Of a DNA stretch of 34,781 nt, positions 6,409 to 9,576 are shown piece after piece. Made by a program: the position numbers and the translations under genes. The DNA is from a bacterium (GTDB taxonomy: Bacteria; Calditrichota; Calditrichia; RBG-13-44-9; J042): positions 1 through 34,781 of the forward strand of contig WFTQ01000003.1 in assembly GCA_015485355.1 (NCBI GenBank), given 5' to 3'. The notes under the pieces are model-generated. The model was given only the letters and a program-made list of their open reading frames with translations. It was not told the DNA's origin and ran no database searches. Every line of letters begins with the position of its first letter. Position 1 is the stretch's first letter.

Positions 6409-6576
6409 ACGCCGGGGAAGCTCCGCCGGGAAGGGTACTTTGTTGCGATCCCCCCGGTGGTGTCCCCTTAACCTCCTGGGGTTGATTAACACCGTTTACC
6501 GTTTTCATCCGTATCCGGTGGTTGCCTGTTCTTTGCCGGTGGGGGTTCGAACCCGTTCATGCCCCGGGGTAGCGAA

Positions 6577-6606
6577 AACCGGCCCGTTTAGCCGGCACGG
6601 CCGGTT
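6577..6606 (-). terminator. probable intrinsic terminator of the Rrf2 gene
   Basis: The arms AACCGGCC (6577-6584) and GGCCGGTT (6599-6606) are perfect 8-bp complements around a 14-nt loop. Read on the minus strand, the stem ends in TTTT, a short U-tract. It lies about 50 nt past the Rrf2 stop codon, in the convergent gap with the S8 protease. The U-tract is short, hence the moderate confidence. Confidence 0.4.
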
Positions 6607-6657
6607 CCACGGCATCGGTGGAAAAGGGGGGAATGTTGACCAACGTTTTTGGGGTAA

Positions 6658-7098
6658 TCAGATCGAATCCGACAGCCGGAGATGAAATTCCTTGATCTCG
6701 CGGCTGGTCTTTGCCAGCGTGGCATATTCCAATGTTTGTTCCAAACGGTCCTTTAATCCTTCCCATTCTTCATGCAGGGGGCAGGGACGATCATCGCCGC
6801 ATCCGGGTAGTCCCAGAATGCACTCGGTGAACAGCGCCGGACCGTCTATGGCAACAATGATATCCTTCAGGGTAATCTGATCCGGCGGACGGGCCAGCTT
6901 GATGCCGCCGTTGGGACCCCGAAACGAACTCATAATCCGATTCTGGGTTAAAATGCGTAATATTTTGGTCAAAAAATGAAAGGAAATGTCCAATTTTTGG
7001 GAAATTTCACGGATGGGGATGTATTCTCGTTCCTTCGACTCCATGGCCACGTATAGAGAGGCCCGGATACCGTACATGCAGGTTTTGGAAAAAATCAT
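6658..7098 (-). CDS. Rrf2-family transcriptional regulator, probably Fe-S-cluster-binding (IscR/NsrR type)
   Basis: A 146-aa cytoplasmic DNA-binding protein. An N-terminal winged helix-turn-helix (about 1-70) has typical Rrf2 features: an opening like MIFSKTCMYGIRA, the helix EISQKLDISFHFLTKILRIL, and the wing GPNGGIKLAR. A cysteine cluster follows, Cys93-x6-Cys100-x5-Cys106 with His109 in CPLHEEW, matching the Fe-S ligand region of IscR/NsrR-type members. It may therefore sense iron-sulfur status, NO or oxidative stress; which one cannot be read from sequence. The upstream DNA is AT-rich, and a perfect 25-nt inverted-repeat element lies 111-135 nt upstream and could be its target. It is not next to isc/suf genes in this window. 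Confidence 0.9.
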   Translation of the reverse strand: MIFSKTCMYGIRASLYVAMESKEREYIPIREISQKLDISFHFLTKILRILTQNRIMSSFRGPNGGIKLARPPDQITLKDIIVAIDGPALFTECILGLPGCGDDRPCPLHEEWEGLKDRLEQTLEYATLAKTSREIKEFHLRLSDSI

Positions 7099-7208
7099 GA
7101 CACCCCCATATTTAAGACAATTTTATACGAAATATCGGGCGATCGCGGGGGAATCTCAAGAGAAAAAAATATTGCTCGGGTCGTTAATTTAGGAAACGAT
7201 ATGATATT

Positions 7209-7233
7209 CGGAAATATTGGTTCAATATTTCCG
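7209..7233. promoter_or_regulatory. perfect 11-bp inverted repeat with 3-nt spacer (operator candidate)
   Basis: The arm CGGAAATATTG is followed by GTT and then by its exact reverse complement. It lies between the Rrf2 gene (start 7098, minus) and the candidate RNA transcript on the plus strand, and overlaps the -35 hexamer of the plus-strand promoter candidate. The size and symmetry fit a dimeric repressor site, such as an Rrf2-type operator, although an RNA hairpin is also possible. Assignment to the neighbouring Rrf2 protein is inference. Confidence 0.5.
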
Positions 7234-7245
7234 CGTTTGTAACTT
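7217..7245 (+). promoter_or_regulatory. promoter candidate for an unannotated plus-strand transcript
   Basis: TTGGTT (7217-7222) and TAACTT (7240-7245) are 17 nt apart. The -10 match is modest. The perfect inverted repeat at 7209-7233 covers the -35. The only plus-strand end signal nearby is the strong terminator at 7404-7439. Confidence 0.3.
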
Positions 7246-7251
7246 TTGGGA

Positions 7252-7439
7252 AAGGAGAGAATCCAACGGAACAGGGGTTAAAAGCGGTGTCGGGGTCGAA
7301 GGCCGGTTTTTCTTGTGAGGAAGGGTTTTTTGCGGTAACGGTACGGAAAACGGGTTGTGCAGATGGTGAACGGGTACCGCTGTTCCCCAACAAAAACCTC
7401 CCGGAAGCGGGTCCGAGAAAGGGGCTCGCTTCTTTTTTT
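7252..7439 (+). ncRNA. candidate small RNA or short transcript ending at an orphan terminator
   Basis: No gene precedes the terminator at 7404-7439 on the plus strand, because the nearest gene, Rrf2, runs the other way. A transcript from the promoter candidate would be about 190 nt. It contains further pairing segments (GCGGTA near 7335 with TACCGC near 7376) and a purine-rich AAAGGAGAG near 7252 that is not followed by a well-spaced ATG, GTG or TTG. A GTG-started ORF at 7287 runs through the terminator, so I do not believe it. I do not recognise an Rfam class. Both ends are predictions. Confidence 0.3.
7404..7439 (+). terminator. strong intrinsic terminator with no upstream gene
   Basis: The 5' arm GAAGCGGGTCC (7404-7414) pairs with 7422-7432 (GGGCTCGCTTC) over 11 positions, two of them G-U, around a 7-nt loop. 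Seven T residues follow directly (7433-7439). This is the best-formed terminator in the window, and it sits 780 nt before the next plus-strand gene. Confidence 0.7.
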
Positions 7440-8220
7440 ATGGGGACTCCCTTCGTGTTGAAATATCTCGGGTAGAGGTGTATCGTCCAGGGAATGAAGT
7501 TGGATTTCGGCTTGAAGGTACGCGGGGTTTCGAGCCGCAGGCCGATGGGGAAACGGCTGTTATCACACCTGTCATTGCGGGAAGTGGTGGCGGCCTCCCT
7601 GGATCGTCCCGGGGGATTTCTTCAATATGTCTGGTCGATTCAATCAAGCTGTCCGGTTGATGGTTAAATTTGGGGCCGGCCTTCGCCGGATGCGGCCCTA
7701 CCGGGAAAACGTCCCGGGTAGTGTCTATTTCGCCTATGATTCTCTGTCGGGTGTGCTCCACATCCGCGATCGCGGTACCGATTTCTATGGTCTGTTTGGG
7801 GGCCGACCGATTGCCTTCGGCCCATCTGGAAGGCGGCTACGCGGATATCGGATTTCAGGCCGGTCGTCTGATGGAAATTCCCGGGGCCTGTCGATTTTGC
7901 GGGAAGGAATGGGGCAGAGGACTGAACAACCGGACGTGCGATTGCTCGGCGGAAAAATCGGGAAGGTGGCGGGGGCGGTGGTTCATACGACGACCCCTCC
8001 GCAAAAAGTGACTCGGGGGATTCGTTTTCCCGGGAAAAGGATAGGTACCCTCGAAAAACCATCCCATGGTTTTGGGAAGATGAGGGATGACTTTCGTGGA
8101 TACTCCATAGGACCCGCATTCGGTAAGGAGGGGAATGGTGATCTGAAATTTTCTTTGTACGAAATGCTAAACAAATGGTGTGGCAACCGATAATCAATAA
8201 AAAACATAAGGGGCATCGTC
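7440..8220. other. 780-nt gap without a convincing gene
   Basis: Two long ORFs overlap on opposite strands here (7627-8193 and 7664-8197). Their products are rich in Gly, Arg and Pro, have no ribosome site and no recognisable domain, so I treat both as chance. The last 60 nt become AT-rich and carry the ribosome site AAGGGG of the GWxTD gene. I could not place a confident promoter. Confidence 0.45.
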
Positions 8221-9576
8221 ATGGCAAGGATGTCGGCCTGGGGAGGCAGGGAGGCCGGACGACGACCCACCGCATTGAGGGCATTTCCACATTGTCTAAC
8301 CGTCATTGTCCTGTTGGGGATGACCGGTTGGTTTACGGCCACGGATGCCGTCTGGAAAAAAAATGAGTTAAAGGTGGCCACACCCGCGGTTCATATCGAT
8401 TACGGGGTGAGCTTCGACCCGGCCGAAGATGGTGCGCGATTATGGTGTGCTATTTCGGTGAAGCCTCAAAATTTCGTTTTCCGGCGCTGGCAAAATCGCT
8501 TTCTGGCCGATATGGAGCTGGAGTGTTCAATAGTGAAATCGGGGAAAGGCGTGCTGGCCACACGATTTTTTCGGGATTCTCTGTTGGCGGGCGACTATCA
8601 GCAGACGCATGAGACCGATGAATATCGCCTGTATCAATTCCGGGTACCCGTAGAGGAGGGAGCCTATCGTCTGCGGGTGGTGGTCCGGGATCGAATTTCG
8701 CAGAAGGAAGCCGTCTGGGAAGAGGCTTTTGAAGTGCATCCCCCGGATCGGCGGCTGGCGGTGAGTGATCTTCAGATTGCCCATCGAGGGGTGCTCTTCG
8801 ACCAAAACAATCTCAAATATTCCCGGGGGGTGGTGTTATATCCGGAACGGCTTTTTGGCGCTCCGGAACCCCAGTTGTTTTACTATTTCGAAATCTACTC
8901 CTGGAAACAAAACGAATTCGGCCGGGTGGAGATTCAGGTGCAGCTGCGAACTCCGGATAATCGCCGTATTCCGGTGTTGCATCGAAAACATCCCTTAAAA
9001 GTGAGTCCGTTTCCTGTGTTCGGTTCCGTGGCTACGGATACCTTGAGGCCCGGGAAATATTTCCTGGTAACCACGGTGAAATCGGCCGATGGCCTGGTGA
9101 CGCTGCAAAAGGCCAAATCGTTCTGGGTGTTTCAGAATCCGGCGGATTTGCGTTTTCGGGATTATCCGGCCGTGCTGGCGGAACTGGGATTGATTGCCGG
9201 CCGGGAAGAAATGACGTATTTAAAGAAAATTCCTCGGAGTTTGCGGCAACAAGCCGTCGATCGATTCTGGAAATTGCGCGATCCCACTCCCCATACCCCC
9301 GCGAATGAAGTGATGACCGAGTTTTATCGACGGGTGTTGTTTGCTCGTCTGTATTTCGAGGGGGGAAAATGGAACGCGCGGAAGTTGTCCGATCGAGCCA
9401 AAGTCTATATCGTGTATGGACGGCCGGATAAGGTATTGCGCAATTCCAATCCGTTACTTCGGAAGAATGTGGAAGTATGGATCTATCAGCGATTGGATAT
9501 TCAGGCTATTTTCCTGGACGAGTATGGGTTTGGAGACTATCGGCTGGTGGAACCATTTTCGCTTTTGCAGGAATGA
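8221..9576 (+). CDS. GWxTD-domain-type protein, exported or membrane-anchored
   Basis: A 451-aa protein. An N-terminal hydrophobic stretch (about 25-42, after an Arg-rich segment) suggests a signal peptide or anchor. Two beta-rich regions follow (about 50-310), then a C-terminal segment with LSDRAKVYIVYGRPD and the ending EVWIYQ...FLDEYGFGDYRLVEP, which is the layout of GWxTD proteins. The signature itself is degenerate: the usual Gly-Trp-x-Thr-Asp reads as Asn-Ala-Arg-Lys-Leu-Ser-Asp. These proteins are common in Calditrichota, Acidobacteria and related phyla, and their function is unknown. ATG 8221 has AAGGGG 7 nt upstream. It stands alone, convergent with the beta-barrel gene. Confidence 0.75.
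   Translation: MARMSAWGGREAGRRPTALRAFPHCLTVIVLLGMTGWFTATDAVWKKNELKVATPAVHIDYGVSFDPAEDGARLWCAISVKPQNFVFRRWQNRFLADMELECSIVKSGKGVLATRFFRDSLLAGDYQQTHETDEYRLYQFRVPVEEGAYRLRVVVRDRISQKEAVWEEAFEVHPPDRRLAVSDLQIAHRGVLFDQNNLKYSRGVVLYPERLFGAPEPQLFYYFEIYSWKQNEFGRVEIQVQLRTPDNRRIPVLHRKHPLKVSPFPVFGSVATDTLRPGKYFLVTTVKSADGLVTLQKAKSFWVFQNPADLRFRDYPAVLAELGLIAGREEMTYLKKIPRSLRQQAVDRFWKLRDPTPHTPANEVMTEFYRRVLFARLYFEGGKWNARKLSDRAKVYIVYGRPDKVLRNSNPLLRKNVEVWIYQRLDIQAIFLDEYGFGDYRLVEPFSLLQE

Follow-up and report, generated by a model that had tools for sequence, protein, structure and literature searches.

Small RNAs can act without Hfq, or in bacteria where no obvious Hfq exists, as described for IsrR and GibS (PMC9410917, PMC7366714). 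IsrR of Staphylococcus is reported as a C-rich, Hfq-independent sRNA regulated by Fur (PMC9410917), and GibS of Bacteroides thetaiotaomicron as an intergenic sRNA from a group without obvious Hfq or ProQ (PMC7366714). For Calditrichaeota, Table 1 of a 2022 review that counted Rfam-derived annotations gives one sRNA (PMC9029176), and our literature search found no report on small RNAs in Calditrichota or Caldithrix (judged by titles for Caldithrix). The candidate RNA described here resembles IsrR in being intergenic, in having a C-rich stretch for Shine-Dalgarno pairing as well as an intrinsic terminator, and in acting without Hfq, the pairing and the Hfq independence being proposals in our case (PMC9410917). 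With GibS it shares a conserved unpaired seed directed against translation initiation regions, again as a proposal here (PMC7366714). The arrangement differs from both: the three C-rich regions described for IsrR are located within or beside upstream stem-loops, and its terminator is poorly conserved (PMC9410917), whereas the candidate has one such stretch, which abuts the terminator, and these two parts are conserved while the rest is not; the seed of GibS lies in the 5' portion (PMC7366714), whereas the conserved and putatively unpaired part of the candidate is at the 3' end. Unlike the Fur-regulated IsrR, the candidate RNA showed nothing that ties it to iron.

The window, i.e. the whole stretch of 34,781 nucleotides that was analysed, belongs to a Calditrichota genome of 3.44 Mb and carries an intrinsic terminator on the plus strand at 7404–7432, with arms 7404–7414 and 7422–7432 that form an 11-bp stem (12 bp with G7403-U7433) around a loop of 7 nt, and with a T7 tract at 7433–7439, as read from the sequence. 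The RNA fold of 7403–7440 has an energy of -20.2 kcal/mol (z -3.97), and 0 of 200 shuffled sequences were equally good. Under a strict rule (at least 11 unbroken pairs, at least 6 G-C pairs and at least 6 T out of 7) it is the only terminator in the window on either strand, and 1000 dinucleotide shuffles of 7099–7660 yielded none (one strand). A laxer rule found 4 terminator-like sites in 6500–8200 versus 2.3 expected, a near-chance number, so the terminator is notable for its strength and not for its presence. The preliminary description of an 11-bp stem followed by seven T is exact, and folding, strict scan and shuffles agree on it. It was also right that the terminator ends no annotated gene: the element is intergenic, no recognised plus-strand gene ends there, and the gene to the left (6658–7098), which encodes an Rrf2 protein, is a minus-strand gene. 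The distance from rrf2 to the next recognised plus-strand gene (8221–9576, GWxTD domain) is about 1.1 kb. Judging from the sequence, a plus-strand RNA probably ends at this terminator.

The evidence for a function beyond termination comes from the one other genome found in the same genus, a sister species represented by a Calditrichota MAG (G001). BLASTN of 6601–8300 against the first 3,500 bases of the sister contig returned three blocks, namely 6662–7175 (rrf2 and 77 upstream bases) with 80% identity, 7380–7438 with 92%, and a weak one at 7574–7770 with 67%, while 7176–7379 gave no significant BLAST alignment. The second block is a conserved island on the plus strand (55 of 60 columns identical, G001:C14:1550–1609), located at the orthologous position beside rrf2, and we propose it as the functional 3' part of the RNA. 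A search with 7200–7445 in 60 genomes matched 2 of them, the genome studied here and its sister, and none of the other 58. As a neutral yardstick we used fourfold-degenerate sites of 11 ORF pairs in nearby genes, some of them overlapping, where 594 of 1238 positions are identical between the two species (48%; range 38–66%); the non-coding island is thus above the neutral expectation (92% vs 48%, in one relative). The 8 other aligned blocks of the sister contig are 67–83% identical each.

The differences within the island comprise one G-to-A change in the stem, 3 of the 7 loop bases, and a one-base difference in the length of a C run. The stem change turns a G-U pair into an A-U pair, and pairing is kept in the sister, so the hairpin conservation in relatives that had been suggested as a check is found, in one relative. 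Only two sequences enter this comparison, and they show 0 double-sided changes of the stem. Both species have the same 14 nt, AACAAAAACCUCCC, before the stem and the same first stem bases; this 14-nt stretch (AACAAAAACCTCCC, 7389–7402, plus strand), unchanged in the sister, is the proposed seed, which would pair with mRNA. It includes ACCTCCC (7396–7402), which is complementary to Shine-Dalgarno sequences.

Identity as high as that of the island is not unique. Among the 60-column windows of the other aligned blocks, 189 of 11,496 (1.6%) reach 55/60; these windows fall into 7 clusters, of which the rrf2 operator region (7079–7103) accounts for one while the others lie at or in genes, and the strongest (60/60) covers the end of an HTH frame and the start of an S-adenosylmethionine decarboxylase frame. 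In conservation the island is therefore on a par with the most conserved coding and regulatory stretches. This control tempers any claim of uniqueness and leaves the contrast with the adjoining intergenic DNA standing: between rrf2 and the gene remnant at 7574 there are two strongly kept stretches, the rrf2 operator region and the island. Weaker terminator-like sites inside coding frames or 6S RNA are 86–98% identical to the sister. Two conserved stretches elsewhere in the window deserve mention in their own right. The segment 20224–20293, from the stop of an HTH/cupin frame (20223) to the start of the S-adenosylmethionine decarboxylase frame, is identical to the sister in at least 60 of 60 columns and forms a leader or start region of unusual conservation. 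The GWxTD gene as a whole is 73% identical, yet its first part and the bases upstream of it (8197–8280) reach 57/60 columns.

In the fold of the last 65 nt ACCUCCC is unpaired in both species, and the first four bases of AACAAAAACCTCCC, AACA, join a weak 4-bp hairpin; in longer folds CCUCCC is partly paired with upstream G-rich sequence. The region 7240–7442 as a whole is not unusually stable (z -1.11, 26 of 200 shuffles equally good). The preliminary description had outlined a transcript of about 190 nt at 7252–7439 with a promoter at 7217–7245, and these limits found no support. The promoter candidate (TTGGTT-17-TAACTT, plus strand) is not conserved, and its score under a simple matrix of the E. 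coli type, 4.9 bits, is below the mean best score of shuffled sequences; the best score in 7176–7385 is 6.1 bits, while the best of the shuffles averages 6.9, and 129 of 200 shuffles reach at least 6.1. The possible 5' part of the transcript, 7252–7379 on the plus strand, is likewise not conserved and has no significant BLAST alignment with the sister. With the promoter at chance level and 7176–7379 devoid of a significant alignment, neither the 5' end nor the length of 190 nt is established. The best promoter candidate of the sister (1392–1422) scores 9.5 bits, with 27 of 200 shuffles equally good, and would give an RNA of ~183 nt, possibly by coincidence. Another candidate in the genome studied here, 7097–7126, has a raw score of 8.1 bits; it covers the rrf2 start together with the operator, and the sister, with a best score of 5.9 bits there, does not share it. 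A stretch shared by both intergenic regions, TGTAACTTTT, was discarded as weak, since shared stretches of that length or more turn up in 68 of 1000 shuffles. A 5' part that changes freely would fit either processing of the RNA or a 5' half that is dispensable.

The neighbouring regulator gene (6658–7098, minus strand) encodes a protein of 146 aa with an Rrf2 family match of 102.6 bits, 92% identical to its sister counterpart, with three C-terminal cysteines spaced C-x6-C-x5-C (by eye). Its earlier designation as an Fe-S-type Rrf2 regulator is right as to the family; the protein scores far below the NCBI cut-offs for IscR, RirA and NsrR, although it has the three cysteines. Upstream of the gene lies a likely rrf2 promoter, TTGAGA-17-GATATT (7131–7159, minus strand), in the block conserved in the sister, although its consensus match alone is not above chance. 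It is overlapped by an operator-like palindrome, TATTTAAGAC-N6-ATACGAAATA (7109–7134), identical in the sister. Palindromes of the form TTTAAGAC-N6-GTCTTAAA were seen by eye in front of rrf2 homologues at nine other loci of the class (L004, L005, L007–L010, L013, L014, L020), with looser versions in some other rrf2 loci and none seen in L006, L011, L019 and L021. A matrix built from ten palindrome sites, including the one in the window, scores 25.8 bits at 7109–7134 in both species; the next best score is 4.7 bits elsewhere in 7099–7450 and 2.6 bits elsewhere in the corresponding region of the sister. These patterns point to a probable Rrf2 operator conserved in the class, and its overlap with the predicted rrf2 promoter fits autoregulation, which is probable as well. 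The supposed link between the RNA and an Fe-S or iron regulator finds no support, as the operator-like site lies over the predicted promoter of rrf2 itself and the next best site scores 4.7 versus 25.8 bits; an RNA start near rrf2 could still place 7109–7134 at the promoter of the candidate RNA. The perfect 11-bp inverted repeat at 7209–7233, CGGAAATATTG-GTT-CAATATTTCCG, was not found in the sister; it was rejected as an Rrf2 operator, being not of the Rrf2 type and present in this genome only. A second rrf2 locus of the sister and its counterpart piece in the genome studied here contain only 9–12-nt matches to the element.

Searches for relatives of the element place it within the genus. No Rfam family matched at gathering score in the window, and with the E-value limit raised to 10 here and 5 in the sister, the matches to other Rfam families were at chance level. 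6S RNA (RF00013), a ~180-nt non-coding RNA conserved in the genus and akin in size to the guessed 190 nt, was rejected as the identity of the element, which lacks an Rfam match, since 6S RNA is encoded elsewhere in the same genome (G000:C22:16987–17168); the copies of the two species agree at 96.7%. Of 40 genomes, 18 contain a 6S RNA that passes the Rfam cut-off, and in the genus it lies close behind an upstream frame (L040, L042; by eye); because it follows the end of that frame so closely, no promoter consensus could be learned from it. Possible copies of the element elsewhere in the genome were dismissed: a search up to E 10 gave 5 matches, all short, and the two best of these fall within coding frames. 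A one-mismatch match to a 17-base pattern in one member of the class was dismissed as well, because it is antisense within a 384-aa frame and has no terminator after it. A two-sequence covariance model, whose innermost pair fits only the sister, was run over 60 genomes, and its non-founder matches begin at E 0.0013; the 10 next-best, taken with 40 upstream bases, hold none of the tested seed strings (0 of 10) and by eye are ordinary terminators or unrelated DNA. The Hfq family PF17209 was over the cut-off in 0 of 40 genomes of the group, with a profile that finds 5 of 14 control genomes, and the genome studied here has no PF17209 match at E 0.001. Two weak Hfq-like matches below the cut-off occur in one genus of the class, inside larger frames (G033:C69:5155–5313 in a 240-aa frame and G017:C1:3913621–3913752 in a 228-aa frame).

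In the mechanism that we propose, a plus-strand non-coding RNA would end at the terminator, and its working part would consist of a largely unpaired CCCCAACAAAAACCUCCC stretch, then the terminator hairpin, then the U-tail. The hairpin would end and protect the RNA, while the AAAAACCUCCC stretch would pair with GGGAGGUUUU-like Shine-Dalgarno regions of some mRNAs and block their translation with no need for Hfq. The exact complement GGGAGGTTTTT occurs 6 times per genome, the element included, and the reversed control 4 and 3 times. The 5 non-self exact matches here and those of the sister include no orthologous pair. In the sister, 2 of 5 lie 11 and 16 nt before an ATG, in front of a YbjQ-family gene (site GGGAGGTTTTTATG) and of a cold-shock-domain gene (site GGGAGGTTTTTGTTCTATG, with 14 complementary nt), respectively. 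Of the 5 matches in the genome studied here, 0 stand before an ATG that opens a frame of 60 aa or more, and 2 stand before a TTG with a long frame, as does 1 of the 5 in the sister. The genome studied here has no close orthologue of the cold-shock gene of the sister (best 56%), and the cold-shock orthologues in two genomes of the same family are without an exact match. One start site with GGAGGTTTTAGCATG is common to orthologues in both genomes, with proteins 98% identical. The shorter GGAGGTTTT lies at most 8 nt from an ATG 15 and 17 times in the two genomes, with one site counted twice, so such matches may be generic. On this sequence evidence the start-site matches are leads and not targets.

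Several other explanations of the locus have to be weighed. One is that the terminator stands alone: it would halt divergent or pervasive transcription coming from the rrf2 promoter region, and the RNA itself would be inert. This explanation requires nothing beyond the terminator, which points away from rrf2 at a distance of 282 nt from its start here and 412 nt in the sister, and it fits the lack of a supported promoter or conserved target. A bare terminator, on the other hand, needs pairing and a U-tract and not an invariant stretch of 14 nt upstream, and the one other strong gene terminator compared (L033), located 10 bases past a 668-aa frame, is less conserved together with its 25 upstream nt (78%, n=1). 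We therefore regard this as a serious possibility, albeit one that we are inclined to doubt. The island might also serve the gene downstream, either as its leader or attenuator or as the 5' portion of a regulated mRNA, given that the sister has an intact plus-strand gene 426 nt past the terminator (starting at L032:2036). That gene encodes 1138 aa (L032:2036–5452) with glycoside-hydrolase-type Pfam hits, and its counterpart in the window is a frameshifted remnant of a large glycoside-hydrolase-like gene, outside the RNA, recovered as three tblastn pieces in more than one frame with 45–65% identity (7575–7888, plus strand). The island has thus stayed intact here beside a decayed gene and is not tied to that gene; assuming that the loss occurred in the lineage studied here, the island outlasted the gene, which argues against a leader function, as do the long distance and the lack of a match to any Rfam riboswitch or leader family at the element. 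A leader is accordingly unlikely.

The conserved DNA could instead be a protein-binding site, or a terminator for the minus strand, where a weaker hairpin (7420–7397, 9 pairs, 4 G-C) is followed by T5. In the sister this hairpin is reduced to 8 pairs and the T-run starts two bases after the stem, no minus-strand gene is recognised to the right before 8221, and the pattern of changes, with the loop free and the pair kept, fits a plus-strand RNA, which makes this explanation distinctly improbable. Slightly below it we place a very short protein-coding mRNA that ends at this site, one of the two options, small RNA or very short gene, offered by the preliminary description. The Shine-Dalgarno-like AAGGAGA (7252–7258) and plus-strand frames of 33–62 aa speak for it; but there is no ATG, GTG or TTG at normal spacing after AAGGAGA, two of the frames run through the terminator, the island carries a one-base length change, and no reading frame is common to the two species, the best tblastx match (E 0.076) being on the opposite strand. 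Of that proposal, the unannotated plus-strand RNA is retained, with a 60-nt 3' end that is conserved as opposed to the DNA to its left, and the short gene is disfavoured.

Taken together, these features make a genus-restricted sRNA candidate credible. Of the explanations weighed, the one that we favour, at evenly balanced odds, is a trans-acting sRNA whose last ~60–65 nt are the functional part and which would pair with Shine-Dalgarno sequences without Hfq. The fuller proposal, a genus-specific, trans-acting and minimal 3'-end riboregulator in a phylum without recognisable Hfq, with an invariant anti-Shine-Dalgarno stretch fused to the terminator and a replaceable 5' half, is advanced only tentatively. 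Little is known of small RNAs in the phylum Calditrichota, and the candidate, if our prediction is correct, would provide a defined and testable regulator where Hfq is not found. It would also show that a comparison of two genomes from one genus can tell the functional part of an RNA apart from the sequence around it.
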